A DNA stretch of 64,000 bases from Halosimplex salinum (lineage in GTDB: Archaea > Halobacteriota > Halobacteria > Halobacteriales > Haloarculaceae). Location of the stretch: the NCBI RefSeq assembly GCF_003730195.1, contig NZ_QWGG01000004.1, positions 310,001 to 374,000 on the forward strand, given 5' to 3'. Position 1 is the first letter of the stretch; each line of letters starts with the position of its first letter. This document shows, in pieces, positions 34,857 to 55,798 of the stretch. The notes beneath the pieces were generated by a model. It did not search any database and was not told the origin of the DNA. It saw nothing but the letters and a program-made list of their open reading frames with translations. The translations under genes and the position numbers were made by a program.

Positions 34857-34899
34857 CACCACCGGAATCGTGACGTGTCGAGTTCGCGTGGGTCGCGGT

Positions 34900-37905: not shown

Positions 37906-37930
37906 GCGAGAGTGAAAGTACGATTGAGGT

Positions 37931-38197
37931 ATGAGACGGGAACTCATTCGGTCGGTCGGTGTCCGCGTGGGCAACGTTCGGGGTCGGCAGACACCGGTCG
38001 TCCGTATCAGGGGCACGGAACGGGAGGGCGAACGGTGTCGGTCCGCTCGACCTGATCGAGCGACACGGTGTCAGGGCTGGCACGGGCGGGGGGTCGATGC
38101 GGGACCTGCCGTCGAGCGTCGTGAAATCGGTTCGGGCGAGTCCATCCAGAGGGTGTCCCCCCGATGTCGGGACGGGGGGCAGTCCCCCGGATGTTGA
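37931..38197 (+). CDS. Possible basic leader ORF (88 aa)
   Basis: MRRELIRSVGVRVGNVRGRQ... rich in Arg (about one in five) and with four Cys, unlike the acidic proteins around it, so coding status is doubtful. In favour: it begins 25 bp after a promoter-like element, and its stop overlaps the start of the cysteine-peptidase-like gene (ATGTTGA at 38191-38197), the junction style used throughout this operon. It could be translated only to couple or attenuate the first gene. Confidence 0.3.
   Translation: MRRELIRSVGVRVGNVRGRQTPVVRIRGTEREGERCRSARPDRATRCQGWHGRGVDAGPAVERREIGSGESIQRVSPRCRDGGQSPGC
38157..38188 (+). promoter_or_regulatory. Mutually exclusive hairpins before the first operon gene
   Basis: C6G at 38157-38163 can pair with CG6 at 38173-38179 (7 bp, 9-nt loop). 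The same G-tract (38175-38179) can instead pair with C5 at 38184-38188 (5 bp, 4-nt loop). The second hairpin ends two bases before ATG 38191 and would hide the start; the first would free it. An attenuator or RNA-switch role is inference. Confidence 0.5.
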
Positions 38198-39411
38198 CGC
38201 TGGAACTCGGCGATCTCACGTGTACGACCCAGAACGAGAGCGGGTCTGACGAGGTGTTACTCGAACTCCGACTCGACGGCGCACACCGGGAGCCGTACCC
38301 GCTCTACCGGGAGATGGACGCGGGGGACTCGTGGACTATCGACCGATCGTACGGCTTCGGCGGTCAGGCGACGCTAACCCTACTGGAACTGGACCCGGTA
38401 GCGAACGACGAGATCGGGTCCCAGCCCATCGACCAGTCGGGGCAGACGACCCTGAGCTTCGAGGGGGACGACGCCGAGTACGACCTCGACGTGACGGTCT
38501 CGCAGGTGTCCGGGACGGATCCCGTGAGCTACGCTATCGACGCGTTCGACAATTCGACGACGAGCGTCGTCCAGAGCGGTTCGAACGCGGGCAACGGAAC
38601 GGTCTGGACGGGCGTGTCGAAGCAGGCGCTCGTGAATCGACTCCGAACCCTCCTCCCACCGGGCGGGAATCCGAACCTGCTTCATCAGGGAGGGACGCCC
38701 TTCTGCGGGACGATCGCGCTCGCGCTGGGCCTCGCACAGCGCCAGCCCAGGCGTCTGGTCGAACTGACGCGGGGGCTCTTCGAAACCGGGGAACTGCTGA
38801 CGGTCGGGGAGTACACCGCGCTGAGCGAAGACCTGAGGGCGAGTCCGGCGCCGAACAACACTCGGGACCTGGAGTGGGTGGTGGGCGCCTCATTGCGCGA
38901 ATCGAAAAACTGGGTCATCGACGTCCAGAACGACGTGTTTCTCGACAAACCGCTGTCGCTGCTCCACGCAGGCTGGCCGTGGGTTCTCAGGGACCTCGCC
39001 GCGGACGTCCTCGATTTCGGGAACATGACGCTGTACGCCGGTCCCACGTTGGAAACGTTACTGTTGAACAAACCGGGAGCGACGCCGCAGTTCGATCCGG
39101 TCTCGGTCGAGACGTCGGTCGAGAAGGCCGGCGAGGCCTACCGGAACGGCGGGCTCGGGATCTTGCTGCTCGACGGGAGTTTCGTCCAGGGGGAAAAGAC
39201 GGCGGCGGGGAACCCGCCGACGCCGATCACGACCGCCGACGAGCCCTGGGTCGCGGCGCCGACGCACTACATCACCTGCCTGGACGGGAACCCAGTTACC
39301 GGGAGCGATTACACGTTCAGGGCCCAGACCTGGGGCGGTCGCGTGGAGTTCGACCTCCCAGTCTCCGAGGGCAACTACTACTTCTTCGGGACGATCGCGG
39401 GGTACCCATGA
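38191..39411 (+). CDS. Operon gene A: C2-like domain fused to papain-like cysteine peptidase
   Basis: 406 residues; ATG 38191 (ATG 38164 in frame is possible). Residues 1-115 form a beta-sandwich-like region, LTLELGDLTCTTQNESGSDE through LLELDPVANDEIG, resembling C2-type domains. Residues 140-406 look like a papain-fold peptidase: the nucleophile in GGTPFCGTIALALG (Cys172), the base in PTHYITCLDG (His359) and a WG element after it (AQTWGGRVEF). WVVGASLRESKNW lies between. No signal peptide. The assignment rests on motif order, not on a named family. It starts the five-gene giant-protein operon and ends in ATGA, opening a 27-codon ORF. Confidence 0.7.
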   Translation: MLTLELGDLTCTTQNESGSDEVLLELRLDGAHREPYPLYREMDAGDSWTIDRSYGFGGQATLTLLELDPVANDEIGSQPIDQSGQTTLSFEGDDAEYDLDVTVSQVSGTDPVSYAIDAFDNSTTSVVQSGSNAGNGTVWTGVSKQALVNRLRTLLPPGGNPNLLHQGGTPFCGTIALALGLAQRQPRRLVELTRGLFETGELLTVGEYTALSEDLRASPAPNNTRDLEWVVGASLRESKNWVIDVQNDVFLDKPLSLLHAGWPWVLRDLAADVLDFGNMTLYAGPTLETLLLNKPGATPQFDPVSVETSVEKAGEAYRNGGLGILLLDGSFVQGEKTAAGNPPTPITTADEPWVAAPTHYITCLDGNPVTGSDYTFRAQTWGGRVEFDLPVSEGNYYFFGTIAGYP

Positions 39412-39491
39412 TCGAAGCTACAGACCCAGTACCGAACAGACGCATCGTACGTTCCGAGGCACCCGCGACCGGGGAGGCTCGCAGTGCCTGA
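39408..39491 (+). CDS. Relay ORF 1 (27 aa) between genes A and B
   Basis: MIEATDPVPNRRIVRSEAPA and seven more residues. Its ATG overlaps the gene A stop (ATGA) and its TGA lies inside gene B, 8 nt overlapping (GTGCCTGA, 39484-39491). It fills the only gap between A and B exactly, so ribosomes could pass along without releasing. It is too short to recognise as a protein. Confidence 0.45.
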   Translation: MIEATDPVPNRRIVRSEAPATGEARSA

Positions 39492-42400
39492 CTCGTTCGT
39501 CGAGACGATCTCGGTCGAGATACGGAGCCTGCTCGAACCGCTCGTCGACGCGGCCGAGAGCGAAGACGCTCGCCGTCGGCTCTTCACTGCGGTCGTGACC
39601 GACCTCTCGGAGGGGGACGCCGACCAGCTCACGAAGCCAGCGGTGGGCGACGCCTTCGACGCGTTCGTGAACGCCTACGAGTCGCTGTCCGACTCGGGAG
39701 GCCAGCCGACCTCGCTGGCGGGCGTGACCCAGCGGCTGTCGACGTTCGGCGAGGTCGTCGTGGCCATCGAGGACATCGAATCGGCCTTCGACGGCGCGAC
39801 GTTCGACGGCATCGCGCAAGCGATCGTCGAGTACCTCGTGCTCGACTACCTGGAACGCCGTTCGCCCCAGGCGCTCGATATCGGACTGCTCCTGACGGTC
39901 GTCGAGCCCGAGGAGCTCGACCCGTCGTCGATCCCGGACAACCAGTGGGGCGGGACGAGAGCGTACGGGCGGTCCAGACACGCCTCGCTCGACCTCGAAC
40001 GGGTCGGCCACTTGCTCGATGCGCCAGCGGAGACGCTTCGGGAGTTCTACCTGCCCGAGACCGTCGAGACCGAGGACGTCAGGGATATAGAGGGGCAGCT
40101 GTTCCCGTGGGTGGTGATCCTCGCGGGGAACCTCGGGTTCGACCTGCAGTACGGCGTGTTCACCCAACAGGAGGAGAACGTCGCGGACATCCAGGGCGTG
40201 ACGCTGGCGTCACGGTCGCTCTCGACCACCCGGACGTTCGGCGACGACGCGATGGTCGGCCTCTCCATCGGACTGGGTCTCGCCGGCGACGAGCTCGCGC
40301 TGCTGGTCGACCCCGCCGGGTCGGTGTCGGTCCCTCCGGTCACCGTCGGGGACTGGCAGCTCTCGGTCGAACTCACGGCCGACGGGACCGTGGCGCTCAC
40401 GAAGACCGGCGTCGACGCCGAGGACGCAGCGGCCGAGGTCGAAGGGACGGTCGCACTGGACAAACGACCTCCGCAGTCGGGCGAACCGGCAGTTCGGATC
40501 GGCGGGAGCGAGAGTACGCGCCTCGAGATCGGTACGTTCGGCATCGAGGGCTCACTCACCGCCACGACCGACGGTATCGACGCCGACATCGTGGCGAAGG
40601 CGGACGATTCGAACGTCACCGTCTCCGGTGGTGACGGCGACTCGTTCGTCGCGAAGGTGCTCCCGGAGGACGGGCTCGCCGTCGACTTCGACGCCGGCCT
40701 GGGGTGGGCCAGCGGTCGCGGGGTCTACTTCCGCGGCGGCGGCGGCATCGACACCGACATCCCCGTTCAGTTCTCGCTCGGGTCGGCGCTGACGGTCCCG
40801 AACCTCCACCTCGCGGCGAAGCCGGACCCGTCGGGCGAAACGATGTCGATCCCGGTCGAGGTCTCGGCGAGCCCGCAGGTGCAACTCGGCCCGGTCGCCG
40901 CGACGGTGGAGCAGATCGGGCTCGAAGCCGACGTGAGCTTCCCCGAGGACGGTGGCGGCAACCTCGGGCCGCTCGACGTGGAACTCGGGTTCAAACCGCC
41001 TTCGGGTGCGGGTCTCTCGGTCGATGCCAGCGCCGTCGTCGGCGGCGGCTACCTGAACTTCGACCCGGAGAACGAACGCTACAGCGGGACGCTCCAGCTC
41101 CAGATCGGTTCGCTGACGCTCAAAGCGGTCGGCCTGTTGACGACGCAGCTCTCGGACGGTCGCGACGGCTTCTCCCTGCTCGTGATCATCACCGGCGAGT
41201 TCCCGCCGGTCCAGCTCGGCTTCGGGTTCACGCTGAACGGACTCGGCGGACTGCTCGGAGTCAACCGCGGGACGAAGGTCGAGGCGCTCCGCTCGGGCCT
41301 GCGCGACGGGACGACGAAGTCGGTGCTCTTCCCGAAGGACCCGATCCGCAACGCCTCGCGGATCGTCAGCGACCTCCGGCGCGTGTTCCCGCCGACCCGC
41401 GCCCGACACGTGTTCGGTCCGATGGCGAAACTCGGGTGGGGGACGCCGACCATCATGACCGCGGAGATCGGCGTCCTGGTCTCGCTCCCGTCGCCGGTGA
41501 AACTGGTCATCCTCGGTCGCCTGCACGCCGCGCTCCCCGACGACGAGGCGGCGCTGGTCGTGTTCAACATGGACGCGATCGGCGTGATCGACTTCGGCGC
41601 GAAGGAGGCCAGCATCGACGCGACCCTGTACGACTCGCGGCTCGTGGCGTACACGCTGACCGGCGACATGGCGATGCGGACGAACTGGGGCGAGGACCCG
41701 GACTTCGCGCTGTCGGTCGGCGGCTTCCACCCGCAGTTCGACCCGCCCGAGGGGTTCCCGGAGCTGCGCCGTATCGCGCTGACGCTCGGCCCCGGAAACC
41801 CGCGGATCCGCTGGTCCGGCTACTTCGCGATCACGTCGAACACCGTCCAGGCGGGCGCGAAGGTCGAACTGTACGCGGCGGCGGCCGGCTTCTCGCTGTC
41901 GGGCCACCTCGGCTTCGACGCGCTGTTCCAGTTCGACCCGTTCAAACTGATCGTCGACATCGCGGCCGGGTTCGCCGTGAAACGCGGCGGGACGACGCTG
42001 CTGTCGGTCCAGCTGTCGGGGTCGCTGAAGGGGCCGAACCCCTGGCACGTCAGCGGGAAGGCGTCGTTCGAGATCTGGCCGCTCAGCTTCTCGGTGAACG
42101 TCGACGCGACGTTCGGCGAGGAGTCGGACCCCGAGCCGCTGCCGCCGGCGGACGTGTTCGGACAGGTCGTCGACGCCCTGGAGGACGAGCGCAACTGGAG
42201 CGCCCAGCTCCCGGAAGGCGGCGAGTCCATCGTCACGCTCCGCGACGTGGAGCGCGAGGACGGCACCGTGCTGGCCCATCCGCTCGGGACGCTCGCGGTC
42301 CGCCAGCAGGTCGCGCCCCTCGGCGTGACCATCGAGACGTTCGGCAACGCTCGACCCGAGACCTACACGAAGTACTGGGTGGCGTCGGTCAGCGTCGCCG

Positions 42401-42996
42401 GACAGTCACAGTCGGTCGACGGCGAGGACGCTCGCGAGCAGTTCGCGCCCGCGCAGTTCTTCGAGATGAGCGACGCCGAGAAGCTGGAGGGGCCGTCGTT
42501 CGAGCGCTACCCGGCGGGCACGGAGGTCGGGAACGCGCTCTTCGCCCACGGCGGGATGGACCCGGAGGACGCCGACCAGACGCGGAGCGCGGAGCTGACC
42601 TACGAGACGTCGGTCGTCGACGAGCGGGCGTCGCCGTTCCCGATGGTCTGGAAGCGGCTCTCGATGCCGCAGACGACGGCGGCGGCGCTGACGGAGGTGA
42701 GTGCGGTCGCCCGCGGGCCGACCCGGACGACCGGGACCGCGAAGTTCGCGGACACGGACGACGCGAGCGGACCGACCGGCGTCGACGCCGGCGTCTCGGT
42801 CTCCGACACGACGTACGTGGTCGCGCGGACGAGCGACCTCAGGCGGGTCGCCGTCCCCGACGTGCCAGCGGACGGAACGACGAACCGAGAGGCGACCGAG
42901 GCGCTCGACGCCTTCCTCGCCGACGGGGACCGCGACGCCGGGACGTATCGCGTCGTCGCGAGTCACGAGGCGACGGGCCCGGCGGTGGAGCCATGA
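39484..42996 (+). CDS. Operon gene B: DUF6603 giant beta-rich protein
   Basis: 1170 residues, GTG start. An alpha-helical N-terminus (about 1-220) is followed by long stretches of short strands. Residues about 575-885 match the DUF6603 pattern: LGFGFTLNGLGGLLGVNRG, RHVFGPMAKLGWGTPTIMTA, DATLYDSRLVAYTLTGDMAM and HLGFDALFQFDPFKLIVDIA. I see no cysteine in the whole protein. No signal peptide. DUF6603 has no assigned function that I know. The C-terminal 280 residues form a separate region with PAGTEVGNALFAHGG. It ends in ATGA, which opens a 36-codon ORF. Confidence 0.85.
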   Translation: MPDSFVETISVEIRSLLEPLVDAAESEDARRRLFTAVVTDLSEGDADQLTKPAVGDAFDAFVNAYESLSDSGGQPTSLAGVTQRLSTFGEVVVAIEDIESAFDGATFDGIAQAIVEYLVLDYLERRSPQALDIGLLLTVVEPEELDPSSIPDNQWGGTRAYGRSRHASLDLERVGHLLDAPAETLREFYLPETVETEDVRDIEGQLFPWVVILAGNLGFDLQYGVFTQQEENVADIQGVTLASRSLSTTRTFGDDAMVGLSIGLGLAGDELALLVDPAGSVSVPPVTVGDWQLSVELTADGTVALTKTGVDAEDAAAEVEGTVALDKRPPQSGEPAVRIGGSESTRLEIGTFGIEGSLTATTDGIDADIVAKADDSNVTVSGGDGDSFVAKVLPEDGLAVDFDAGLGWASGRGVYFRGGGGIDTDIPVQFSLGSALTVPNLHLAAKPDPSGETMSIPVEVSASPQVQLGPVAATVEQIGLEADVSFPEDGGGNLGPLDVELGFKPPSGAGLSVDASAVVGGGYLNFDPENERYSGTLQLQIGSLTLKAVGLLTTQLSDGRDGFSLLVIITGEFPPVQLGFGFTLNGLGGLLGVNRGTKVEALRSGLRDGTTKSVLFPKDPIRNASRIVSDLRRVFPPTRARHVFGPMAKLGWGTPTIMTAEIGVLVSLPSPVKLVILGRLHAALPDDEAALVVFNMDAIGVIDFGAKEASIDATLYDSRLVAYTLTGDMAMRTNWGEDPDFALSVGGFHPQFDPPEGFPELRRIALTLGPGNPRIRWSGYFAITSNTVQAGAKVELYAAAAGFSLSGHLGFDALFQFDPFKLIVDIAAGFAVKRGGTTLLSVQLSGSLKGPNPWHVSGKASFEIWPLSFSVNVDATFGEESDPEPLPPADVFGQVVDALEDERNWSAQLPEGGESIVTLRDVEREDGTVLAHPLGTLAVRQQVAPLGVTIETFGNARPETYTKYWVASVSVAGQSQSVDGEDAREQFAPAQFFEMSDAEKLEGPSFERYPAGTEVGNALFAHGGMDPEDADQTRSAELTYETSVVDERASPFPMVWKRLSMPQTTAAALTEVSAVARGPTRTTGTAKFADTDDASGPTGVDAGVSVSDTTYVVARTSDLRRVAVPDVPADGTTNREATEALDAFLADGDRDAGTYRVVASHEATGPAVEP

Positions 42997-43103
42997 GCGG
43001 TCCCGGAATCGAGCGCGATACCGGGGCCACGAGCGCCGCTCGCGCGGCGAACGGAGATACGACCATGCACGCAACGGACGACAGTGGGGCGGTGGCACAG
43101 TGA
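42993..43103 (+). CDS. Relay ORF 2 (36 aa) between genes B and C
   Basis: MSGPGIERDTGATSAARAAN and 16 more residues. The start overlaps the gene B stop (ATGA) and its stop overlaps the GTG of gene C (GTGA, 43100-43103). Inside it, GGGGCGGTGG ends four bases before that GTG and can serve as a Shine-Dalgarno sequence. Whether the peptide itself matters is unknown. Confidence 0.45.
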   Translation: MSGPGIERDTGATSAARAANGDTTMHATDDSGAVAQ

Positions 43104-46100
43104 CGACAGACCCGGCGGAGTACTCGTTCGTCCCGTGGGTCCGCGAGGGGTATCGGCCGACGGGCGACGGCACGCCCGGCGAGGTGGCCGTCGAACTCGC
43201 GGTGGACGCGACCGGCGAGTCCGACCTCGACGAACCGGAGACGGTCGAGACGACGCTGTCGCTGTACGGACCCGGGGAGGTGACCGGCGTCGACCGCCGA
43301 CAGGTCGTCCGCACGGACCCCTCGTCGGGAACCGGCGACTTCCCGCCGAACTACTTCCCGTACGTCGAGTTCGACAGACCGGACCTGCCGTGGCTCTTTT
43401 CGCCCGGCAGCGACGACGACGCCGGCCGACTCGACCCGTGGCTCTGCCTGATCACCGTCGAGCGCGGCGACGGTGTCTCGCTCTCGACGGACGCGGACGG
43501 CCCCGCGTCGGTCCTGGAGATCGGCGGGGCCGCGGATCCGGGAACGGAACTGCCGGACCTCTCGGAGTCGTGGGCGTGGGCGCACGCCCAGACGGTCGGG
43601 GCCGACGACGCGACGGCGGAACTCGACACCGACCGGTCGCCGAAGACGCTCTCGCGACTCCTCTCGCCGCGGGACCTCGACCCGAAGACCGACTACTACG
43701 CCTGCCTCGTGCCGGCCTTCGAGGCGGGCAAGCGGGCCGGGCTGGACGAGGACCCCTCCGAGGACGGCGACCGCACGTTCGACCCCGCGTGGGACGCGGC
43801 CAGCCCGCCGGACTCCATCCGGCTCCCGGTGTACTTTCACTGGGGCTTCTCGACCGGTGACGCGGGCGACTTCGAGTCGCTCGTTCGGCGACTCGGCCCG
43901 GAGACGCTCACGGACGTCGGGATCCGGACCGTCGACGTCGGCGACCCCGGGCCGGACTCGCTCCGGCAGGACGGCGAGACGGTCTCCGTCGAGGGGGCGC
44001 TGCGCTCGACGGATCTCTCGCCGGACACGTACGACCCGGCGCTTCGGGCGAAACTCGAAGCCGTCGTCGACGCGGCGAGCGCGCTCGAGTCCGGGAGCGA
44101 CACGCAGGACGGGGACCCGGTGCTCGGGCCGCCGACGTACGGCCAGTGGCCGCCCGCGGCCCCGGAGGTTCCGGCCGAAGGATCCCGGCCGGCGTGGCTC
44201 CGCGACCTGAACGTCGACCCGCGCTATCGGGTGGCCGCGGCGTTCGGGACGGACGTGGTCCAGGACCAGCAGGAACACCTGATGCGCAACGCCTGGGAGC
44301 AGGTCGGCGACGTGCGGCGGGCCAACCAGTTGCTCCGGCGCGCGCGCCTGGCCCGCGAGGCCAGCCGCTCGCTCCACGTCGCGCTCGACGACGCCGACGA
44401 CACCGAGACGCTCCTGCGCACCGAACCGCTCCACGGTCGAACGACCGACGGGACGGAGACCATCGGAAACCGGGTCGCGGAGAGCGCGCTCCCGTCCGCG
44501 ACGCTCTCGCCCGCCTTCCGCCGGATCACCCGCGCGAACGGCCCGCTCGCCCGGCGATTCGGCGGCCTCTCGACCGTTGCGATGGTCGACGGCGTGGCCG
44601 ACGGGTCGATCGACCCCGGTGACGACCGTTCGGCGCCCGACGGGACGCAGACGGTCGGCGACGAACTCGCCGCGAAACTGTGTTCTGCGGCGCGCGAATC
44701 GGGCGGCGACCTCGACGCGTGGCACCCGCTGGGCGAGGAGTCTCGGCGCGGCCCGCGGAAACGACTCTCGGACCTCCGCGACGCCTGCCGGGAACTCCGC
44801 GAGCGAACGGCCGAACTGAGAGATGCCTTCGAAGGAACGCGAGTCGAACGGGAGATCGGTCAGTTTATCGAGCCGCTCATGGGCGTCTGCGCCGGGCCGG
44901 GTCAACAGGAGTTCGAGTCTGACCTCGACCGGCTCCTGGCCGCGCTCGAGGCGGGGGACGAACGGCGATTCCACGAGGTGCTGACGCGGGTGTTCGACAG
45001 GGTCGACGAGTCCGAGGCCGGACACGAGACGCTGCGCGAACTCGCGGCGTCGTACGGCGACCTGCGGGAGGCGCTCGACGAGGGGTTCGGCGTCACGCCG
45101 GCCTACGAGTCGTTCCGGTCGCTCCTCCGACTGCTGACGCTCTCCGTGTTCCGCGAGGTGTTCTGGGTCGTCTGTTCGACCGCACGCCGCCACCTCGCGA
45201 CGATCGAGAAGCACTATCCCGAGCGGTCGGACCTGATCGCGGAGATAGAGGCCGTCTGCGTGGCCATCTGTGGCCCCGGTGACGAGCCGGGGAACCTCCT
45301 CGAACGAGTCCTGAAGCGCCTCGAGAGCGGGGAGACGCGGGCGTTGCGGTCGGCTGCGGCCGACCTCGACCAGACGCTCGCGATGGCGGCCGACCGTATC
45401 GACCGGCTGCTGGCGACGCTCGACGACCTCCCGCGAGACAGCCCGGTCCACGAACTCGCCGCGGCGTGCGAGGCCGCCGCCCGGTACGCGACGGCGCTCC
45501 GCGAGCGACTCGCCGCGGCGCCGTGGTCGCCCGCCGCCGACGCGGTCGGCCAGAGCGTCTGTCCGCGGCCGGAGCCCGCGGAGCCCGACCCGCTGGACGT
45601 GTCGGTCGTCGCGGACGCCGTCGTCGACGCGGTCGATCCAGCGGACACGATCGCCGCGCGGCTGGGGGACCGGCTCGGCGGGGTCGACCTCGCCAGTCGG
45701 TCGGACGGGCTCGACCAGATCCTCGCCCATCCCGAGTTCAAACAGCCGATGTACGAGGCGCTGGCCGACCGGTCGAAGGAGTCGCTCCTGCCGGGCGTCG
45801 GCGAGATCCCCGGCAACAGCGTCGGCGTGCTGGAGACGAATCCGGCGTTCATCGAGTCGTACATGCTCGGGCTGAGCCACGAGATGGCCCGGGAACTGCG
45901 CTGGCGTGAGTACCCGACGGACATGCGCGGGACCTTCTTCCGGCAGTTCTGGGACCCCGCCGGTCGCCCCGAGACGGCCGACGGTCCGTCGACCGACGAG
46001 GCGAAGCGGGACATCGACTACGTCCACCGCTGGAACGACTCGCTCGGCCTCGGCGGCAACTACGCGGCGAAGATGGCCGCCAAGACCGGCGGATCGAGCG

Positions 46101-46669
46101 ACGTGGGCGGCCAGCTCGTCCTGATCGTCCGCGGAGAGGTGCTCGACCGATACCCCAACACGCACGTCTACGCGGCGAAGGGCCGAAGCGAAGCGAACGG
46201 CGACGACGGGTCGCCCGACCGCGTCCCCGACCTGCCGGAACCGTCCGCGACGCCGGGCGAGGGCACCGACGGCGACGTGAAACACCCGCTCTTCCGGGGG
46301 ACGCTCGACCCGGACATCACGTTCTTCGGGTTCGACCTGACCGAGGACGAGGCGGTGGCCGACCCCGGCTGGTTCTTCGTCGTCGAGGAACCGCCGAGCG
46401 AGCCGACGTTCGGCCTCGACGTGGCCGTCGACGACCCCGAGGCGTCGGGCCCCTGGGGGTGGGAGGACCTCACCTGGGACGACGTGGCCGCGGACGGCTA
46501 CGTCTCGGCGACGACGCCGCCGAGCGGCGACGACGTGCCCGGGACCCTCCCGAGCCCGCCGATGTGGGGAAAAAAAGCCGCCCACGTCGCCGAGATAACC
46601 TGGCAGCGACCGTTCCGGATCGCGATCCACGCCGACGACATGATCTCACAACACGGAGGCAGTCGATGA
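43100..46669 (+). CDS. Operon gene C: giant protein of unknown function (1189 aa)
   Basis: GTG start overlapping relay ORF 2. Residues 1-130 are beta-rich with DFPPNYFPYVEFDRPDLPWL near 80. A central alpha region (about 370-850) begins GTDVVQDQQEHLMRNAWEQV. Near 905 stands NPAFIESYMLGLSHEMAREL followed by RWREYPTDMRGTFFRQFWDP, and near the end HPLFRGTLDPDITFFGFDLT and DPGWFFVVEEPPSEPTFGLD. From memory, proteins with these blocks occur in actinobacteria and other bacteria as uncharacterised proteins. No signal peptide or catalytic motif. It ends in ATGA. Confidence 0.8.
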   Translation: MTTDPAEYSFVPWVREGYRPTGDGTPGEVAVELAVDATGESDLDEPETVETTLSLYGPGEVTGVDRRQVVRTDPSSGTGDFPPNYFPYVEFDRPDLPWLFSPGSDDDAGRLDPWLCLITVERGDGVSLSTDADGPASVLEIGGAADPGTELPDLSESWAWAHAQTVGADDATAELDTDRSPKTLSRLLSPRDLDPKTDYYACLVPAFEAGKRAGLDEDPSEDGDRTFDPAWDAASPPDSIRLPVYFHWGFSTGDAGDFESLVRRLGPETLTDVGIRTVDVGDPGPDSLRQDGETVSVEGALRSTDLSPDTYDPALRAKLEAVVDAASALESGSDTQDGDPVLGPPTYGQWPPAAPEVPAEGSRPAWLRDLNVDPRYRVAAAFGTDVVQDQQEHLMRNAWEQVGDVRRANQLLRRARLAREASRSLHVALDDADDTETLLRTEPLHGRTTDGTETIGNRVAESALPSATLSPAFRRITRANGPLARRFGGLSTVAMVDGVADGSIDPGDDRSAPDGTQTVGDELAAKLCSAARESGGDLDAWHPLGEESRRGPRKRLSDLRDACRELRERTAELRDAFEGTRVEREIGQFIEPLMGVCAGPGQQEFESDLDRLLAALEAGDERRFHEVLTRVFDRVDESEAGHETLRELAASYGDLREALDEGFGVTPAYESFRSLLRLLTLSVFREVFWVVCSTARRHLATIEKHYPERSDLIAEIEAVCVAICGPGDEPGNLLERVLKRLESGETRALRSAAADLDQTLAMAADRIDRLLATLDDLPRDSPVHELAAACEAAARYATALRERLAAAPWSPAADAVGQSVCPRPEPAEPDPLDVSVVADAVVDAVDPADTIAARLGDRLGGVDLASRSDGLDQILAHPEFKQPMYEALADRSKESLLPGVGEIPGNSVGVLETNPAFIESYMLGLSHEMARELRWREYPTDMRGTFFRQFWDPAGRPETADGPSTDEAKRDIDYVHRWNDSLGLGGNYAAKMAAKTGGSSDVGGQLVLIVRGEVLDRYPNTHVYAAKGRSEANGDDGSPDRVPDLPEPSATPGEGTDGDVKHPLFRGTLDPDITFFGFDLTEDEAVADPGWFFVVEEPPSEPTFGLDVAVDDPEASGPWGWEDLTWDDVAADGYVSATTPPSGDDVPGTLPSPPMWGKKAAHVAEITWQRPFRIAIHADDMISQHGGSR

Positions 46670-46725
46670 CGGGGCACAGCACGGACAGAGTGGAGACGGA
46701 CGCCAGCGGGGGTGACCCGGCGTGA
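46666..46725 (+). CDS. Relay ORF 3 (19 aa) between genes C and D
   Basis: MTGHSTDRVETDASGGDPA. ATGA overlap with the gene C stop; GTGA overlap with the gene D start (46722-46725). It contains GGGGGTGA ending six bases before the GTG, a good Shine-Dalgarno sequence for gene D. Confidence 0.45.
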   Translation: MTGHSTDRVETDASGGDPA

Positions 46726-49700
46726 GCGCGACCGGCGTCGAGGCGCTCCGCTCGCGGTACGTCACCGCTCGGCGCGACCTGGCGCGAGCGGACGCCGACG
46801 TGTCCCAGGCGACGACGCTCCTCTCGGAACTCGACGCCGCCCACGCCGCCGCGCGCCGCGGCGAACCGACGGAGTCCGCCCGGTCCGCGCTGGAGGACCT
46901 CCACACCGAGATCGCGAGCTGGGCCTACGACACGGAGTCGATCCCGGAGCCCGACCGCCCGGCGTTCGCCGATTTCGAGGTCGAGTCGCTGGACGACCTG
47001 CGCGAGCGGCTGGTCCAGTTCGCGACGGCAGCGGACGACGGCGACACCGACCGGTTCGCGACGCTGCGGTCGCTGTTGCGGACGGCGGTGAACGCGGTCG
47101 AACCGGAGCTGTCGGAGCCGTCCCTGCTCCTCGAAGCGCTCGAAGACGCCGTCGAGGCCGGCGCGCCGGAGCGCGCTGCCGACATCGCCGAGCGGTTCGT
47201 CGACGCGCTCGCGGAGCGCGGCGCGACCGTCGAAGACCTGCGCCGACTCGTCGAGCGGGGGCGCGGTCCGACGGCTCGCGAGCACCTCGACCGGCTCCAG
47301 ACCGACACGGGACGAGACGACGCGCTCGAGGCGATCGCAGACGCGCTCGACGACCCGGAGGAAACCGACTACGGCGCGGCGCGCGCGCCGGTCGCCGGTG
47401 CGGTCCGCGCCATCGACTCGTTCGCGGCCGCCCGGCGCGCCGAGATCGCCGACGTGACCGACGAACTCACCGACGAGTATCCCAGCGACCCGGCGGCACC
47501 GCTGGACGGCATGGCTAACGAAACGCCGGTCTTGCTGTTGCCGACGCGCCTGGAGACTCGTTTCGAGGACGTGTCGGACCCGAACGGGCCGGACGTGCGA
47601 CTGAAGGTGCGGGTGTACCCCGACGACGTCCACGTCGACACCCACGAGCGTGAACTCACCGACGAGGAGGTCCGCTGGGGCGTCCACTTCTGGCAGCAGG
47701 TGTGGTGGGCGAGCCACACCGGATCCGCCGAGGAGGTCTGCGCGGCCGTGCCGGACGAGATCGTCGCCGACGTCGACCTCTCGACGTTCCCCGAGGACGC
47801 GGCGGCGCGTCACGGCGCGGTCCTCGAACGGGCGTGGAACCAGCTCGCCGAGCGGTTCGGTCCCGACCGGGCGGCGTGGGTGAAACGCGAACTCGCGCCC
47901 GAGGAGGCCGACGCGCTGCTCGACGGGCCGCTCGACCCCGTTCCCGACGTCGACTTCGAGGCGATCCGCGCCGACGCCGACCGCCGCCCCGACTCGTGGA
48001 CGCGGCCGCCCCGGGCGCGGGGACTGCCGGACCAGTGGGTCGCGTTCGCCGAGACGGACGGGTCGACCGTGACCGCCCGGAGCGGTCCGGTTCGACGGCC
48101 GCTCGCGATCGGTCCCGACCCGGACCGGATCGGGAGCCTCGACGGCGAGTCCGACGGGGCCGGTGACGGGTCCGGTTCGAACGCACCGGGAGACACCGAC
48201 GCCGACGCGCTCGGCGGCGGCGAGACGAGCTGGGTGTTCGACTTCGACGAGGCGCTCGACGCGGGGATGGCGCTGACGGTCCCGCTCACGGCGGACCAGG
48301 CGTCTGCCGGCGTCGACAGCCTCGTCGTCCTCGGCGTCTCGACGGCGCTCGACGAGCGCGACGGCCGCGACGCGGTCGAGACTCTGCTCGAATCTCACCG
48401 CTACACGGACGGCCTCTCTATTCTCGAACGCGGGACGCCGACGAACGACACCCGCGAGGACGGTGCGGGGACCGCGCCCGGCGACCGCCCGACGCCGTTC
48501 GACCTCGCCTGCGGCGACGCGCGCAAGACGCCCGACGCGGACAGCGACGCCGCCCGCGCGGCCGCCCTGCTCGGACTCGACGGGTCGAGGGGAGCCGGCG
48601 GGAGCGTCCTCGGTCGCGTCGCCGGCGGCGGTGCGAGTCACGACGCGGCCGCCGAGGCGATGAACGCGGCGCTGTGGCCCGCGACCCTGGGGTACTACCT
48701 GCCGCACATGCTCGCGCCGGCGTACTGGACCGACTCGGTCCGGCCCCGACCGGAGTTCCTGCGCTGGCTGGAGAGCTACCGCCGCCACTTCGTCGAGTAC
48801 GTCCGCGCTGGCGGCCCGCTGCCGACGCTCCGCGTCGGCGACCAGCCCTACGGCGTCCTCCCGACGACCGACCTGAACGCCTGGCGGCCCGTCGGGAAGT
48901 ACGCCGTGTCCGCGGGAGCCGACCGCCCGAAGACGGCGGGGCACTTCACGTACGAGCGACTCGCGGACCGCGACGCCGAGTCCGACCTCGTCTCGCGACT
49001 GCGGTCGATGCGGGGCGCCTGGGCCGACGCGACGAGCGACGTGCCGAGCATCGAGTCGCCGGACGACCCGGAGACCGTCGTGACCGAACTCCTCGCGATG
49101 GCGGGGGTCGGCTACGGCTACCACCTCCGCGACCTGATCGGCGAGGACGTGATGACGGATCTCGTCGGGTCGAGGACGAGCGTCGGCGACGACGTCGACG
49201 ACGCGAAAGCAGCGGTCACGGCCGCGCTCCGGAAGCACGTCTCGAACGCCGAGACGCCCAGAGTGGGCGGACTCCTCGCGAGCGATCCGGCCACCGAGGT
49301 CCACGCGGCGCTCGTCGCGGACGACCTCGACGACTACCTCCGCTCGCTCCGCACCGAGCCCCACGGCGCGCTCCGGAGCGGCCCGCCGGGCGCGGGCCTC
49401 TCGCTCGCCGACGCGGGCAACCTGCTCGTCTGGTTGATCACCGTGCTGTTCGACGGCGACGACCGTTCGCTCCTCGAGGTCCTGCTGTACGTCGCTCTCA
49501 TGCAGGAGTACCGGCTCGGCCGCGTCCGCCTCGGCCACCAGTACGACGACTTCTGGGAGGTCGAGGAGTTCGAGGACGTGACCTGGGCCGACACGGTCTG
49601 GTCGCTGTTCCCCGAACCCGAGACCTACGACGACGACGACCTGACTCTGTGGGCGGCCCTCGACGAGTCGGTCGCCGACGACCTCGCCGAGCACCCGAAC

Positions 49701-52700
49701 GTCGACGGGAAGACGAGCTACGGCGACGCGCTCCGGCGCAACCCGGACATCGACGCCCCCTTCGCCGCGGTGGTCGAGGCGTTCGACGCGCTCGAATCGG
49801 TCGACGAGGACCTCGCGGAGCGGTTGCTCCGCGAGACGCTGGACCTGTCGAGCCACCGCTTCGACGCGTGGGCCACCTCCGTCGCGACTCGACGGCTGGA
49901 CGGGATGCGAGAGTCCGCCGGTGACGGCCTCTACGTCGGGGCCTACGGCTACGTCGAGGACCTCGAACGCGAGTTCGACAGTCGGTCCGCCGGCTACGTG
50001 CAGGCGCCGTCGGTCGGGCAGGCGACGACCGCCGCGGTGCTGCGGAGCGGGTTCGAGACGAAGGAGAGCGACGCGCTCGCGGTCGACCTCTCGGCCGAGC
50101 GGGTCAGGGACGCGCGGGAACTGATAGGCGCCGTCCGAGACGGGCGACCGCTGGGCGAACTGCTCGGATACCGCTTCGAACGGAGGCTCCGCGAGGAGTA
50201 CCCCGCGCTCGACGTCGAGCGCTATCTCCCCGCGCTCCGGGCGGTGGCGCCGCTCGTCGAGGGCAAGGTCGACCGCGACGGCATGAGCGAATCGGACGAC
50301 GCCGCCGAGCGCGACGTGGTCGACGGGGTCGCCATCGTCGACGAGTGGCGGACGGGCGACCCCCTGTGGGGCCGTTCGGCGGGGAGTCACGGGACGACGC
50401 TCCCGTCGACCGACCCGGACGACGACAGCTACGACGCCTACGTGGCTATCCGAACGGAACTGGAGTCGCTCGAAGCGTCGCTCGACGCCGTCAGCGACGT
50501 GCTGACCGCGGAGAGCGTCCATCAGCTCGTCTCGGGTAACCCCGAGCGAGCGGGCGGGTCGCTCGACGCGCTCTCGCGGGGCGAGGCGCCGCCGGACCTC
50601 TCGGTGACGGAGACGCCGCGGACGGGGACCGCCTGCACGCACCGGCTGCTGGCGCTCCTCGACCCGGACGCCGACGGGTCGGCCTGGGGGTCGCCGTCGG
50701 CGCCGCGGGCCGACGCGGAACCCGCACTCGACGACTGGGCGGGGACGCTCCTCGGCGACCCGTCGCGAGTCGTCTGCCGGGTCGCGTTCGAACCGCGACC
50801 CACGGCGGTGGCCGGCGGGTCCGGTGACGACTCCGACGGTGACGAGGCGGGCGAGACGACCGTCGGAACGCCGGAGTGGCGCGTGACGACGCTCCGGCTG
50901 GCAGATCTGGACCTGTGCCCGCTCGACCTCGTCTACCTCGTCGAGGGCGACGCCGAGGCCTGGCACTCGGAGCTCGAAGAGCGGATCGACTACCGGACCA
51001 GGCGCGAGCGGTCGGACGTGGCTCCCGAGGGCGACGTGCGTATCTCCTTCGCGCCGCCCGCCGAGTGGCCGGACCCGGCCGCGCTCGGCGTCGACCCGGA
51101 CGACGCCATCGGCTTCGGCCCGCTCCTGGAGGCCGTCCGTGGCGTCCGCGAAGTGGTCACGAGCGGGCGCGCCGCGGACGCTCGCGACGTGTCGCTGCCG
51201 GGCGAAGCGGGGGACCGCGGCCGCCTGAAAGCGCCTCTCGTCGACCGCGTCGAGACGGTCGAGCCCGGACTGGAATCGGCCGTCGCGGCGATGGACGACG
51301 TATCGGCCGCGTTCGCGGCCGACGACGGCACGACCGATGGCTCGACCGGCGACTCGACGGAGAACGCCGAGGGCGAGTCGAACATGTCGAGCGAGTACGG
51401 TCGTCTCGCCGACCTGACGACCGCTCTCGCTGGCGTCTCGTCCGGCCCGATGGACGCCGTCGACCGCCGCCTCGACGCGGTCGATCCGGGCGCAGTGGGA
51501 ACGGATCTGGCGACGCTCGTCGCGGTCGCGGCGGGCGACGCCGTCGCGCTGGCGCGCGACGAGTCGGGCGATGTCGTCGTCGACCCGCGCGAACCGGTTC
51601 TCGTGGGTCTGAGCGTCGCCCGACCGGACACCGAGGTACAGATCGACGTGACGGCCGGCGGCCGGACGCGACAGGCGGAGGCTCGCGTCGGCCGGGACGG
51701 CGTCTTCGAGGCGAAACTCCCCGAAGAGGCCCGCGACGCGCTCTCTTCCGGAGACACCTTCGACCTCGACGTGACGGTCGATGGGACGACCACGAACGTC
51801 ACCGCCCGCTACGACGAGGTGGAAGGCGAACGGTCGTTCGCCGGGCCGGCCCTCGCCGAGGCCGCCGCGCTCGGCAGGGCGCTCGACTCGCTGGAGACGA
51901 GCGCGACCGCGGTCACCGACGCGGTCGACGCGCTCGACGCCGACGTGATCCGCACCGCCGCCGACCACGTGACGGTCGAGCAGTGGCCCGAGGCGGACGC
52001 GTCGGGGCAACTCGACGCCGCGCTGGACGCCGGAACGGCGACGCTTCCCGGCTTCGCCGACCCGGACGGGTGGGACGAACTGGGTCCGATGTTGCTGGCA
52101 GTCGCGGACGGCCGTCTCTCCCGGGAACTGCTGCTGGAGACCGAGACCCGGGAGTACCCGCGCGACCCGACCGAACTCGCCGAACTCGTAGACGACCTCG
52201 CTGCCGACGCGGCCGACGGACTCGACACGTTCGGCGCCGCGGTCGACGCCGCGACGAGCGAGCCCGCGGTCGCCTTCGCGACCGGCGGTTGCGAGGCGCT
52301 CCGGGCCGCGCTGCTCGTCGCCGCGGACCACGGTATCCACGGGAGCGTCCCGGTGTCGGCGACCGGCGCGACGACGGACGACATCGTCGACCTGACGAGG
52401 CAGGCCGACTCAGTGGCCGCGGAGTGCGCGGAGCGGCTCTCGGACGCCGCGGCCGCTGCCGACGACGCCGCCGGTCAGCGCGACCGACTCGAGGCGCTGT
52501 TCGGCGACGCGTTCGAGGTCCTGCCGCCGTTCGCCGCGTCGAACCCCGGGGAACTCGACCGCGCGCTCGATCCGAGCCACGACGCGACCCTCCTCGGCCC
52601 TGACCCGCTCGCCGCCGAGACGTGGTTCCAGCGGGTCTCGCGGGTGCGCGACGTCCCCCGCGACTTCGGGCGGGCGCTGACCTACGGCGAGTCGCTGGGC

Positions 52701-53222
52701 GACCGCTCGCCCGCCGACGGGTCTCGATTCCGGGTCGCACAGCTCCCCTACGAAGACCCCGACACCTGGGTCGGCAGACCCGCGGCCTGGGACGGCGACC
52801 CGCCGACGGGGAAGCTCTCGCTGGTCGCACACGTCCAGGGGGACCAGACCGCGGACGAACTCGTCGGGCTGTTCGTCGACGAGTTCGTCGAGACGGTCCC
52901 CGGCGACACAGAGACGACCGGGGTGAGCGTCCACTACGACAAACCCGGCAACAGGGCGCCGCAGTCGATGCTGCTCGCGGTCCCGCCGACCGACGATGAC
53001 TGGAGTCTGAAGACGCTCGCGGACCTCGTCACCGAGAGCGTCGACCTCGCGAAACTGCGGACCGTCGACCGGGACGCCCTCTCGGGGCTCGGCCACCTCC
53101 TCCCCGCGACGGCGCTCGCGACGAACGAGTCCACTGGCGTCGGGCCGGACACAGCCTCCGTCGACGCCGACGACCTCGGGCCGCCGTGGTGGTACCGCGA
53201 CGGTCAGGGGGGTGGGAACTGA
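46722..53222 (+). CDS. Operon gene D: giant protein of unknown function (2166 aa)
   Basis: GTG start. Residues 1-260 are helical and Ala/Glu/Arg-rich. At 264 a new module begins, MANETPVLLLPTRLETRFED, followed by RLKVRVYPDDVHVDTHEREL. Near 704 lies LRVGDQPYGVLPTTDLNAW, and at 1600-1710 an immunoglobulin-like stretch with VLVGLSVARPDTEVQIDVTA. Short Asp/Gly/Ser linkers separate modules. From memory these motifs recur in large uncharacterised bacterial proteins next to homologues of genes C and E. No signal peptide. Its TGA shares its last base with the ATG of gene E. The 1956-codon antisense ORF over it is a GC artefact. Confidence 0.8.
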   Translation: MSATGVEALRSRYVTARRDLARADADVSQATTLLSELDAAHAAARRGEPTESARSALEDLHTEIASWAYDTESIPEPDRPAFADFEVESLDDLRERLVQFATAADDGDTDRFATLRSLLRTAVNAVEPELSEPSLLLEALEDAVEAGAPERAADIAERFVDALAERGATVEDLRRLVERGRGPTAREHLDRLQTDTGRDDALEAIADALDDPEETDYGAARAPVAGAVRAIDSFAAARRAEIADVTDELTDEYPSDPAAPLDGMANETPVLLLPTRLETRFEDVSDPNGPDVRLKVRVYPDDVHVDTHERELTDEEVRWGVHFWQQVWWASHTGSAEEVCAAVPDEIVADVDLSTFPEDAAARHGAVLERAWNQLAERFGPDRAAWVKRELAPEEADALLDGPLDPVPDVDFEAIRADADRRPDSWTRPPRARGLPDQWVAFAETDGSTVTARSGPVRRPLAIGPDPDRIGSLDGESDGAGDGSGSNAPGDTDADALGGGETSWVFDFDEALDAGMALTVPLTADQASAGVDSLVVLGVSTALDERDGRDAVETLLESHRYTDGLSILERGTPTNDTREDGAGTAPGDRPTPFDLACGDARKTPDADSDAARAAALLGLDGSRGAGGSVLGRVAGGGASHDAAAEAMNAALWPATLGYYLPHMLAPAYWTDSVRPRPEFLRWLESYRRHFVEYVRAGGPLPTLRVGDQPYGVLPTTDLNAWRPVGKYAVSAGADRPKTAGHFTYERLADRDAESDLVSRLRSMRGAWADATSDVPSIESPDDPETVVTELLAMAGVGYGYHLRDLIGEDVMTDLVGSRTSVGDDVDDAKAAVTAALRKHVSNAETPRVGGLLASDPATEVHAALVADDLDDYLRSLRTEPHGALRSGPPGAGLSLADAGNLLVWLITVLFDGDDRSLLEVLLYVALMQEYRLGRVRLGHQYDDFWEVEEFEDVTWADTVWSLFPEPETYDDDDLTLWAALDESVADDLAEHPNVDGKTSYGDALRRNPDIDAPFAAVVEAFDALESVDEDLAERLLRETLDLSSHRFDAWATSVATRRLDGMRESAGDGLYVGAYGYVEDLEREFDSRSAGYVQAPSVGQATTAAVLRSGFETKESDALAVDLSAERVRDARELIGAVRDGRPLGELLGYRFERRLREEYPALDVERYLPALRAVAPLVEGKVDRDGMSESDDAAERDVVDGVAIVDEWRTGDPLWGRSAGSHGTTLPSTDPDDDSYDAYVAIRTELESLEASLDAVSDVLTAESVHQLVSGNPERAGGSLDALSRGEAPPDLSVTETPRTGTACTHRLLALLDPDADGSAWGSPSAPRADAEPALDDWAGTLLGDPSRVVCRVAFEPRPTAVAGGSGDDSDGDEAGETTVGTPEWRVTTLRLADLDLCPLDLVYLVEGDAEAWHSELEERIDYRTRRERSDVAPEGDVRISFAPPAEWPDPAALGVDPDDAIGFGPLLEAVRGVREVVTSGRAADARDVSLPGEAGDRGRLKAPLVDRVETVEPGLESAVAAMDDVSAAFAADDGTTDGSTGDSTENAEGESNMSSEYGRLADLTTALAGVSSGPMDAVDRRLDAVDPGAVGTDLATLVAVAAGDAVALARDESGDVVVDPREPVLVGLSVARPDTEVQIDVTAGGRTRQAEARVGRDGVFEAKLPEEARDALSSGDTFDLDVTVDGTTTNVTARYDEVEGERSFAGPALAEAAALGRALDSLETSATAVTDAVDALDADVIRTAADHVTVEQWPEADASGQLDAALDAGTATLPGFADPDGWDELGPMLLAVADGRLSRELLLETETREYPRDPTELAELVDDLAADAADGLDTFGAAVDAATSEPAVAFATGGCEALRAALLVAADHGIHGSVPVSATGATTDDIVDLTRQADSVAAECAERLSDAAAAADDAAGQRDRLEALFGDAFEVLPPFAASNPGELDRALDPSHDATLLGPDPLAAETWFQRVSRVRDVPRDFGRALTYGESLGDRSPADGSRFRVAQLPYEDPDTWVGRPAAWDGDPPTGKLSLVAHVQGDQTADELVGLFVDEFVETVPGDTETTGVSVHYDKPGNRAPQSMLLAVPPTDDDWSLKTLADLVTESVDLAKLRTVDRDALSGLGHLLPATALATNESTGVGPDTASVDADDLGPPWWYRDGQGGGN

Positions 53223-55798
53223 TGCCCTCGGACACGACGTGGACGCGGCTCGAACCGCGGACCCGCGACGCCGACCTCCGGGACGGCCTCCGCGCGGCCG
53301 TCCACGACCCGCTCTGGCTCCTCGGGCGCCAGTGGCAGACCGGCGAGTTCGTCGGCGAAGACGCCGGTTCGCTCGTCGACGCCCGCCTCTCGCTCGACGT
53401 CGAGCGGATGGCTCGCGGCCGGCCCGGCGGCCCCGACGCCTCGGTCCCCGACACCGTGTTTAGCGACGGCGACGCCGAACCGCCGCTGGAGACGCTCGTC
53501 GAACGGCAGCGAGTCCGCCCGGACGGTGCGGACGACACCGACCGGAACGTGCGACTCGCGGCCGAAGCCGGCGCGCACTTCCAGCGGCTGCTCGGACCGG
53601 TGGTCGCCGCCGAAGCGACCGAGTACCCGGAATCGGCGCACCTCTCGGCGGAAACCGGCGACGAGGGCGACGAGAGCGATGACAGCGACGGGAGCGACGA
53701 GGCCGACGAGGCCGACGACAGCGGAGAGAGCGACGAGACGCCGTCCGAGACGAAGCGCTATCTCTCGGTCGTGGGCGACCGCGCGCTCGACGGCGACGCG
53801 CTCTACGACGCGTACGACTTCGCGGACTACGCGGCGTTCGAGACGGCGATGCGGGGCGATTCGCCGCCACCGGCGCCCGAATCCTTCGACCCGGACGCGG
53901 CCGACGACGACACTCTCCGGGACTACTGGGACGCCGTCGAGAGCTACCGGGAGTGGTACGAGTCGCGCTACAGCGAGCCGGAACCGGGCGCCGACGGCGG
54001 GTCGTGGGACGACGACCGACAGGAGTACGAGTACGCCGTCTCGACGGGGAGCGAGAGCGACGAGACGGTCCTGACGGCCGACGAGTACGAGGGCGGGCGA
54101 CTCGACTGGCACGCCTTCGACGTCGACCACGAAGCCAGCCTCGAACCCGACGACTGGACCGGCCCGGCGACCGAGCGGGTCGAGCGCTCGCTCGTGCCGG
54201 CGCCGACTGCCTTCGAGGGCATGCCGGCCGAGCGGTGGTGGGAGTTCGAGGACGACGGGGTCGACCTCTCGGCCGTCGAGGCCGCGCCGGAGGACCTCTC
54301 GCGGCTGCTCCTCCTGGAGTTCGCGCTCGTGTACGGCAACGACTGGTTCACGATCCCGGTCGACCTCCCCGTCGGCTCGCTGTCGAGCGTGGCGAGCTTC
54401 GAACTGGAGACGACTTTCGGCGAGACCATCGACGCCGACGACGCCATCGTCACCGACGAGGACGCGACGACCGGCTGGAACATGTACTCGATGGGGCTCG
54501 ACGCGACGGGCGACGAGCGCGGACTCTTCCTCGCGCCGACGCTCGTCGAGTCGGTCGAGAGCGAGACGGTCGAGTCGGTCGAACTCGCCCGCGACGAGTC
54601 GGCCAACGTCGCGTGGGCCGTCGAGACGACGCTCGAAGGCCGCGTCGGGCAGGCCCGCGACCGCGACGAGGAGGTCGCCGGCGGCGAGGACGCGACGCCG
54701 GTCGCGACCAGCGAGGACGCCGAGGTGGCCTACCAGCTCGCCACCGACGTCCCCGACAACTGGTTCCCGCTCCTCCCGCGGCGACGGTCGCTCGGTGACG
54801 TGTCGCTCGAACTCGGCCGCCTCCTGACCGACGACGGACCGCCCGCCGAGCCGCTCGGCGACGTGCTCGCCGGCGATCTGTCGGTTCCCGACGAGGAGGT
54901 GTCCCGGACCGGGAAGACGGTCGACAGGCGGTACGCCCTGACCCGCTGGACGGACGGTTCGACCCACCTCTGGGGCGGGCGCGAGACGAGCGTCGGTGGC
55001 GGCGGGACCGCCAGCGGCCTCGCGTTCGACGAACTCGTCGACCCCCGGACCGGCGACGAGTCCGCGCCCGTCGGCGACCCGACGCCGTTCCCCGACGCCG
55101 AGCCGGTGCCGCCGACCGCCCGGATCGAGCTCACCGACGCGCAGTTCGAGACGCCCGGCGGCGCCCGCGAGAACCTCGACGCGGAGACGGTCACGCTCAC
55201 CAACGTCGGCGACGACTCGCTCGACGTGAGCGGCTGGTCGGTCGCCGACGCCGCCGGCACCGCCTATCGCGTCGCCGACGGCACGACGCTCGGCGGCGGG
55301 GCGAGTCTCACGCTCCACACCGGGTCGGGGCCCGATACGGACACCGACCGCTACTGGGGGCGCTCGCAGGCCGTGTGGAACGACGCGGGCGACACCGTCC
55401 ACGTCTTCGACGACGGCGGCGCGCTGGTGCTCGCGCGGACGGTCCCCGAGCGACCCGAGGACGTGACCGGCGACCCGCTCGCGCTGGCCGCCGTCGTCGC
55501 CGACCCCACCGGAACCGGCGCCGACCCCACCGAGGAGTACGTCGTCTTCGAGAACGCGAGCGGCGGCCCGCTGGACGTCTCCGGCTGGCGCGTCGAGGAC
55601 GCTGCCGGCCACAGCTACCGGTTCCCCGCAGGCACGGAACTCGCCGCGGACGCGTCGATCAGGCTCTACTCGGGCGTCGGAGCGGACGACACGGGCGAGT
55701 GCTACTGGGGCCGGGGCAGCGCCGTGTGGAACAACTCGGGCGACACCGTCTCGGTGTTCGACGCCGCAGGCGCGCTCGTGCTCCGCCACAGCTACTGA
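53222..55798 (+). CDS. Operon gene E: conserved protein with two C-terminal lamin-tail domains
   Basis: 858 residues, ATG overlapping the gene D stop (TGATG), with GGGGGGTGGG seven bases upstream. It starts TWTRLEPRTRDADLRDGLRA, then DPLWLLGRQWQTGEFVGEDA and PLETLVERQRVRPDG, which I recall from uncharacterised bacterial proteins. An Asp/Glu/Ser-rich linker (about 155-180) follows. Residues 634-745 and 752-858 are two lamin-tail-like (LTD) domains: RIELTDAQFE..., DVSGWSVADAAG, YWGRSQAVWNDAGDTVHVFD, then DVSGWRVEDAAG, YWGRGSAVWNNSGDTVSVFD. LTDs often end secreted or surface bacterial proteins, but no signal peptide is seen. Confidence 0.85.
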   Translation: MPSDTTWTRLEPRTRDADLRDGLRAAVHDPLWLLGRQWQTGEFVGEDAGSLVDARLSLDVERMARGRPGGPDASVPDTVFSDGDAEPPLETLVERQRVRPDGADDTDRNVRLAAEAGAHFQRLLGPVVAAEATEYPESAHLSAETGDEGDESDDSDGSDEADEADDSGESDETPSETKRYLSVVGDRALDGDALYDAYDFADYAAFETAMRGDSPPPAPESFDPDAADDDTLRDYWDAVESYREWYESRYSEPEPGADGGSWDDDRQEYEYAVSTGSESDETVLTADEYEGGRLDWHAFDVDHEASLEPDDWTGPATERVERSLVPAPTAFEGMPAERWWEFEDDGVDLSAVEAAPEDLSRLLLLEFALVYGNDWFTIPVDLPVGSLSSVASFELETTFGETIDADDAIVTDEDATTGWNMYSMGLDATGDERGLFLAPTLVESVESETVESVELARDESANVAWAVETTLEGRVGQARDRDEEVAGGEDATPVATSEDAEVAYQLATDVPDNWFPLLPRRRSLGDVSLELGRLLTDDGPPAEPLGDVLAGDLSVPDEEVSRTGKTVDRRYALTRWTDGSTHLWGGRETSVGGGGTASGLAFDELVDPRTGDESAPVGDPTPFPDAEPVPPTARIELTDAQFETPGGARENLDAETVTLTNVGDDSLDVSGWSVADAAGTAYRVADGTTLGGGASLTLHTGSGPDTDTDRYWGRSQAVWNDAGDTVHVFDDGGALVLARTVPERPEDVTGDPLALAAVVADPTGTGADPTEEYVVFENASGGPLDVSGWRVEDAAGHSYRFPAGTELAADASIRLYSGVGADDTGECYWGRGSAVWNNSGDTVSVFDAAGALVLRHSY

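Follow-up and report, generated by a model that had tools for sequence, protein, structure and literature searches.

The 64,000-nucleotide window studied here (positions 310,001 to 374,000 of contig NZ_QWGG01000004.1, catalogued as G000:C23:310001-374000), from the 5.07-Mb genome of the haloarchaeon Halosimplex salinum, raises the question of what is built by five consecutive genes, A to E, at 38191-55798. The answer that we favour, with a probability of roughly 0.4, is that B, C, D and E form a chassis carrying one exchangeable hydrolase, A, which acts outside the producer or at its surface. Four observations stand at the base of this proposal: the B-C-D-E order is strict, A swaps among unrelated families, the proteins have no signal peptides, and the block was recently inserted.

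A preliminary description of the sequence had listed five co-directional, near-contiguous genes, and both their arrangement and their sizes are confirmed. All lie on the + strand: gene A, in the variable position discussed below as that of a cargo or effector (38191..39411, 406 residues), gene B, encoding the DUF6603 protein (39484..42996, 1170 residues), gene C, with a GTG start (43100..46669, 1189 residues), gene D (46722..53222, 2166 residues) and gene E (53222..55798, 858 residues), with intergenic gaps of 72, 103, 52 and -1 bp. An alternative ATG at 38164 would lengthen A to 415 residues; the start at 38191 is the likelier one, because in the alignment an internal Met of the Halobaculum homologue stands opposite Met10 of this longer form. 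The GC content at third codon positions (0.86-0.94) and the acidic nature of the five proteins fit haloarchaeal coding sequence. Since a GC content of 70% often yields open frames of such length on either strand, the status of A to E as genes rests on homology, and homologues of B to E in about 15 phyla align with them along the protein lengths.

These homologues demonstrate that B-C-D-E is a real conserved unit. A D profile run against genome contigs yielded 80 loci, and 90 were analysed in all, a few duplicates included. The four genes follow one another in this order on one strand in 73 of the 90 (about 15 phyla), a few having one gene split or doubled, with median gaps of -4 to +5 bp and at 25-58% identity; the remainder comprises 15 loci cut at their ends, one with B after E and one plasmid with E only. 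Plasmid searches with D and E found neighbouring copies in haloarchaea, Streptomyces, Rhizobium and Gemmatirosa, so that the statement in the preliminary description on bacterial neighbours resembling the last three proteins holds and, with the 90 loci, extends to all of B-C-D-E. Because these loci were chosen mostly through D, the co-occurrence of B and E was counted separately. Among 346 Actinomycetota genomes DUF6603 was present in 11 and E in 9, with both in 7 against 0.29 expected (Fisher p ~1e-10), and in five of these seven the genes lie on one contig, about 10 kb apart. The archaeal sample contains four above-cut-off DUF6603 matches (G000, G028, G046 and G241), all of them with E at most ~15 kb downstream. 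E itself occurs in 5 of the 145 genomes sampled in the class (haloarchaea), one match being marginal, and the unit in ~1-4% of the sampled genomes. Homologues scattered singly, the pattern that had been named as speaking against a common system, are thus mostly not what is found, both in the ordered loci and in genomes examined independently of D; the part that goes the other way is that some DUF6603 proteins occur outside the module. Their divergent form in Myxococcota is accompanied by a tail-collar-type protein, a subtilase-like protein and a short C relative, or is part of giant single proteins (gene kinds judged by eye).

Several individual loci depart from the common layout. Nitrospira defluvii (L119) has two B genes about 3 kb apart (3244-6564 and 9417-12674) with A in between, and a myxobacterium (L116) has two B genes ahead of C-D. 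Tail-collar-type proteins with a GW-x2-CDG motif adjoin a divergent DUF6603 pair in L113 (1-10980), and such a protein lies downstream of B-C-D-E once among the loci (L069, 16206-17201). A full B-C-D-E set (L087, 2702-17083) is on a contig binned, as recorded, as Candidatus Hermodarchaeum of the Asgard archaea. The lone E of a Streptomyces anthocyanicus plasmid (L018, 17947-19752), a few kb from IS5-type transposase genes, is probably a remnant. A viral origin was considered and rejected, no relative of D being present in viral_contigs; a partial D match in an unverified, unannotated faecal 'Bacteriophage sp.' scaffold (MT835531.1; L130, 4741-6813) is a doubtful phage record and was not counted.

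The gene directly upstream of B is the exchangeable part of the locus. It was missed in the preliminary description, whose overall view is partly supported. Sixty-four loci have such a gene on the same strand, overlapping B by a median of 4 bp, and these genes fall into many unrelated groups. Among 61 that were scanned we found PhoD (23), phospholipase D (5), peptidase M64 (5) and subtilase S8 (2), together with Het-C, a glycoside-hydrolase-like domain and NAL1-type trypsin-like domains; one further type matches a beta-lactamase-type enzyme, below the cut-off only. The signature motifs are kept in many members (GDQxYAD in 22 of 26 PhoD, HxK in 5/5 phospholipase D and GHGTHxAG in 2/2 subtilase sequences). 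One upstream gene counted as an A in the signal-peptide scan given below, that of L065, encodes a TonB receptor and is probably outside the system.

The exchange is most directly seen in four Nitrospira loci, whose C, D and E proteins are 58-84% identical along their lengths (as much as 87% when a fifth locus, L104, is included) and whose B proteins are 51-76% identical. Their A genes encode a PhoD (L089), a subtilase (L095), a phospholipase D (L101) and an M64 peptidase (L103), with no BLAST similarity among the four. On an E tree made by a quick method, where swap counts are minima and gain is indistinguishable from loss, the 49 loci with an assigned A class require 16 class changes, against a minimum of 9 and a mean of 20.5 after shuffling, and if only the five Pfam classes are counted 41 loci require 11; L059, L083 and L084, whose post-E gene is not a PhoD, are excluded from the count. 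Subtilase- and trypsin-type A proteins have in common a C-terminal domain of ~110 residues (E=3e-10), which is a candidate docking domain, and a sorting signal common to the ends of all A proteins was looked for and not seen. Because the slot is exchanged, and in most relatives holds non-proteases such as PhoD and phospholipase D, the facts speak for A as a cargo or effector and against the processing enzyme that had been offered as one option. That a four-gene unit keeps its order over about 15 phyla while its enzyme slot is filled from five or more unrelated hydrolase families points strongly to a machine not yet named. The preliminary idea of an undescribed system is to this extent upheld: DUF6603 is unmentioned in the literature searched, a scope outside which lay most subscription journals and all preprints.

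Searches of Pfam, NCBIfam, PHROGs, PADLOC and PDB gave no match for the A protein of the window, and the 145 other genomes sampled from the order gave no hit. Its one relative, 30% identical, occupies the same position in Halobaculum gomorrense (L057). Counting residues from the 38164 start, the C-terminal part contains Q175-x5-C181, H368 and T389-W390-G391, in the order found in papain-like peptidases, and all of these residues are invariant between the two sequences, the only two available. The protein is thus predicted to be a papain-like cysteine peptidase, with an N-terminal part that by eye may be C2-like.

Pfam matches in A to E are limited to those which the preliminary description had given, DUF6603 in one protein and two lamin-tail domains (LTDs) ending another; A, C and D have none. 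In B, DUF6603 (PF20248) covers residues 429-998 (E=7e-141; 470.7 bits against a cut-off of 27). Structure models were made for B and E. The model of B (pLDDT 81, from a 53-sequence alignment) shows a helical N-terminus (1-216), then ~35 strands (~240-877), many of them amphipathic, and a C-terminal region. In structure comparison, the part from 510 to 877 resembles porins and the apoB belt (Z of 11-17), at a root mean square deviation (rmsd) of 8-13 Å. Amphipathicity exceeds that of shuffled sequences in 11 of the 19 strands of the core and in 8 of the 15 strands upstream of it. We read B from its model as a putative lipid-facing amphipathic sheet, a pore or a belt. Its helical N-terminus has weak matches to helical bundles, IpaB among them (E ~0.5-0.9), which were taken as chance. 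E consists of a conserved core (1-612) and two C-terminal LTDs (PF00932, E=4e-36); in its model (pLDDT 76.5, 55 sequences) the stretches 630-744 and 744-858 superimpose on lamin A/C (Z ~14, rmsd 2-4 Å over 99-111 residues), and neither PDB nor BFVD offers a clear counterpart for the core fold (TM of ~0.1 or less in the best BFVD rows).

C has conserved N- and C-terminal parts and a variable middle. D has a region of coiled-coil appearance (~1-260), a conserved core (~260-1340) and a conserved end (~1850-2140). Of 22 long C or D proteins in relatives, four contain FG-GAP repeats, and record annotations name a BGTF surface domain in haloarchaeal D. A comparison of C, D and E with one another gave only a weak D-E stretch (hhalign probability 17), which was not used. 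In Nitrospira, an extra gene of ~270-307 residues, coiled-coil-like and apparently a detached D N-terminus, lies between C and D (L089 8728-9648; L095 8820-9626; L101 8813-9622; L103 8760-9566).

Concerning the site of action, the absence of signal peptides noted earlier for A to E is borne out: none has an N-terminal hydrophobic segment, the maximal KD15 being 0.40-0.83 as against 2.4-2.7 in two secreted neighbours. Throughout the family, hydrophobic N-termini of signal strength are rare (3/64 A, 1/73 B, 0/80 C, 0/92 D and 0/82 E). Some copies contain domains of surface or extracellular type, LTDs in 7 of 55 E proteins and peptidoglycan-binding (PG_binding) domains in two A proteins. The rarity of signal peptides together with these domains favours cytosolic assembly followed by action at the surface or outside the cell. 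We propose that A to E would be made and assembled in the cytosol, where the amphipathic beta-meander of B may insert into or wrap lipid and C, D and E may form a body bearing exchangeable surface domains (LTD, FG-GAP). A would be loaded, a C-terminal docking domain serving for this in some families, and then delivered to, or displayed toward, other cells or surfaces, to cut lipid, phosphoester, wall or protein; the cargo in this archaeon would be the papain-like cysteine peptidase. A more specific form of the proposal sees in B-C-D-E the body of a non-contractile cargo-delivery particle of a new class in bacteria and archaea, with a membrane-active DUF6603 part, one interchangeable hydrolase per locus and, in haloarchaea, cargo enzymes of their own. 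This form is tentative, and we consider it somewhat unlikely.

A number of points weigh against the proposal. The binding among B to E and of A to them is putative, C, D and E match no solved machine (by sequence for C to E, by structure for E), and sequence searches for solved relatives of the three gave nothing credible. The porin and apoB matches of B align only ~220-290 residues at 8-13 Å rmsd, so its sheet may not be a pore. LTD, FG-GAP and PG_binding domains are each limited to some lineages. No export route, lysis gene or immunity gene was found beside A, which B directly follows. Finally, in three Solirubrobacter loci no A is recognised upstream of B and a different protein follows E, to which place the cargo gene may have moved. 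By eye, the start of this protein resembles peptidoglycan amidases in two Solirubrobacter loci (L059 15861-18116 and L084 15845-18178); its identification as PhoD in L059, L083 and L084 was ruled out.

Among the rival explanations, intracellular defence or programmed death is the likeliest, although we judge it unlikely. In it B to E would be a sensor scaffold that switches on the variable hydrolase A upon infection. A constant core with a variable effector, the lack of signal peptides, a putatively membrane-active B and a patchy distribution (E in 5/145 haloarchaea, DUF6603 in 11/346 Actinomycetota) would all be expected of such a system, and some records place it on plasmids next to integrases and AbiE-type genes. 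Against this, PADLOC-DB system proteins match A to E only at the level of an LTD in E, and there is no conserved nucleotide-binding loop in B to E, to which the search was limited (P-loop pattern in 0/53 B, 5/52 C, 2/50 D and 3/55 E). Furthermore, the LTD, FG-GAP and PG_binding domains of some copies suit a surface, and the neighbours in the window are housekeeping and surface genes rather than a defence island.

Free-standing PhoD and similar enzymes normally bear an export signal. The A proteins of the module lack one, which tells against a complex for foraging or surface remodelling, in which a surface scaffold would hold the hydrolase to scavenge phosphate, lipid or peptide without antagonism. 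That the commonest A classes are PhoD phosphodiesterases and phospholipase D would agree with it, as would the hosts, mostly free-living organisms of soil, sediment and water, and the occurrence of LTDs in extracellular nucleases (PMC6085458, PMC4486849). A four-protein carrier of ~4500-5400 residues is however costly for one exoenzyme and a Het-C-like A is ill-suited to scavenging, and we hold this explanation to be distinctly unlikely. A selfish or chance co-transfer block with products that do not cooperate is highly improbable, for although the block moves among lineages and is on plasmids in several hosts, its order is constant over about 15 phyla at 25-58% identity, with overlapping genes and hardly any lone copies among the loci, a survival from which we infer selection on the order.

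The A to E block is in this genome a recent insertion. The distance from sufD to the DtxR-type regulator gene is 21.9 kb in the window and 1.0-3.3 kb in six same-genus genomes, and the block is absent from all six in which both flanking genes were located. In one of them (G583), which keeps the surface protein gene at the left, homology to the window stops at 37527 and restarts at 55852, so that A to E lie in the segment missing there (37528..55851); in another (G581) homology stops at 35486 and restarts at 55852, the absent segment being 35487-55851. The GC content is 0.72-0.74 in most of the island and 0.63-0.68 immediately outside, and direct repeats, looked for at its ends, gave no shared word above 11 bp. 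Acquisition from bacteria, as earlier suggested, is right as to a recent gain and probably wrong as to its immediate source. Haloarchaeal E proteins form one supported group in the E tree and the nearest relative is that of Halobaculum gomorrense, from which we conclude that the block was probably gained from another haloarchaeon; the B to E proteins of that species are the nearest relatives of those in the window (50-58% identity in full-length alignment, 62% for the E core).

The island is flanked at the left by a sufC-B-D run, a HIT-family gene (34870-35352) and a haloarchaeal surface protein gene (35579-37726), and at the right by the DtxR-type gene (56731-57162). The surface protein gene is present in G583 (77%) and absent at this place in G581 and others, so the site may be one of repeated insertion. 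The last ~116 bp of sufD (34691-34807) recur at 35356-35471, directly past the HIT-family gene, and the sufD ends of relatives match both copies, as though insertion of the HIT-family gene had come with a duplicate of the sufD end. Elsewhere in the window, a stretch of ~290 bp (1841-2131) has ~60 partial copies genome-wide at ~68-87% identity, a widespread repeat or domain family.

Among known systems, contractile injection systems (CIS), both extracellular and the haloarchaeal ones resembling type VI secretion systems, are likewise encoded by multi-gene operons without signal peptides, occur patchily in a few per cent of environmental bacteria and archaea, and have variable toxin or enzyme genes beside a conserved core (PMC8213781, PMC11566945). 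In contrast to them, A to E have no Pfam or PHROG match to sheath, tube, baseplate or spike families, the only PHROG match being the LTDs of E, and membership in the extracellular CIS was rejected on this ground. No recurrent tail sheath or tube gene appears among 135 flanking proteins (best 25 of 171 families), and in the models of B and E, the two available, no likeness to sheath, tube or baseplate stands out. Tc (ABC) toxin complexes consist of three or more giant signal-less proteins with a variable enzymatic part. The module is alike in its giant signal-less proteins and variable enzyme; it differs in that A to E have no Tc, Rhs or YD-repeat Pfam domain and the enzyme is a separate upstream gene, and the TcdA1 structural matches of E cover just an Ig-like lamin-tail stretch.

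NTP-dependent ternary conflict systems also join a constant core to exchangeable effectors, trypsin-like peptidases among them, and couple the two through shared non-catalytic domains (PMC7159879). The A slot is a variable effector position of this kind, whereas B to E lack a conserved P-loop and no vWA or MoxR domain is recognised by Pfam in the window proteins. Polymorphic toxin systems combine diverse toxin-like enzymes with conserved parts (PMC3482391), and the C-terminal domain shared by two protease classes of A is a further likeness; unlike in those systems, whole genes are swapped rather than C-terminal tips, and A is followed not by an immunity gene but within a few bases by B. As its parts match none of the systems compared and DUF6603 is unmentioned in the literature searched, we regard the putative machine as new. 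If it serves delivery, it would be a class of its own, with no relation to the contractile or Tc-type systems known, and if it serves defence, a large new immune system of core and effector; the question is directly testable, because A swaps between closely related Nitrospira chassis.
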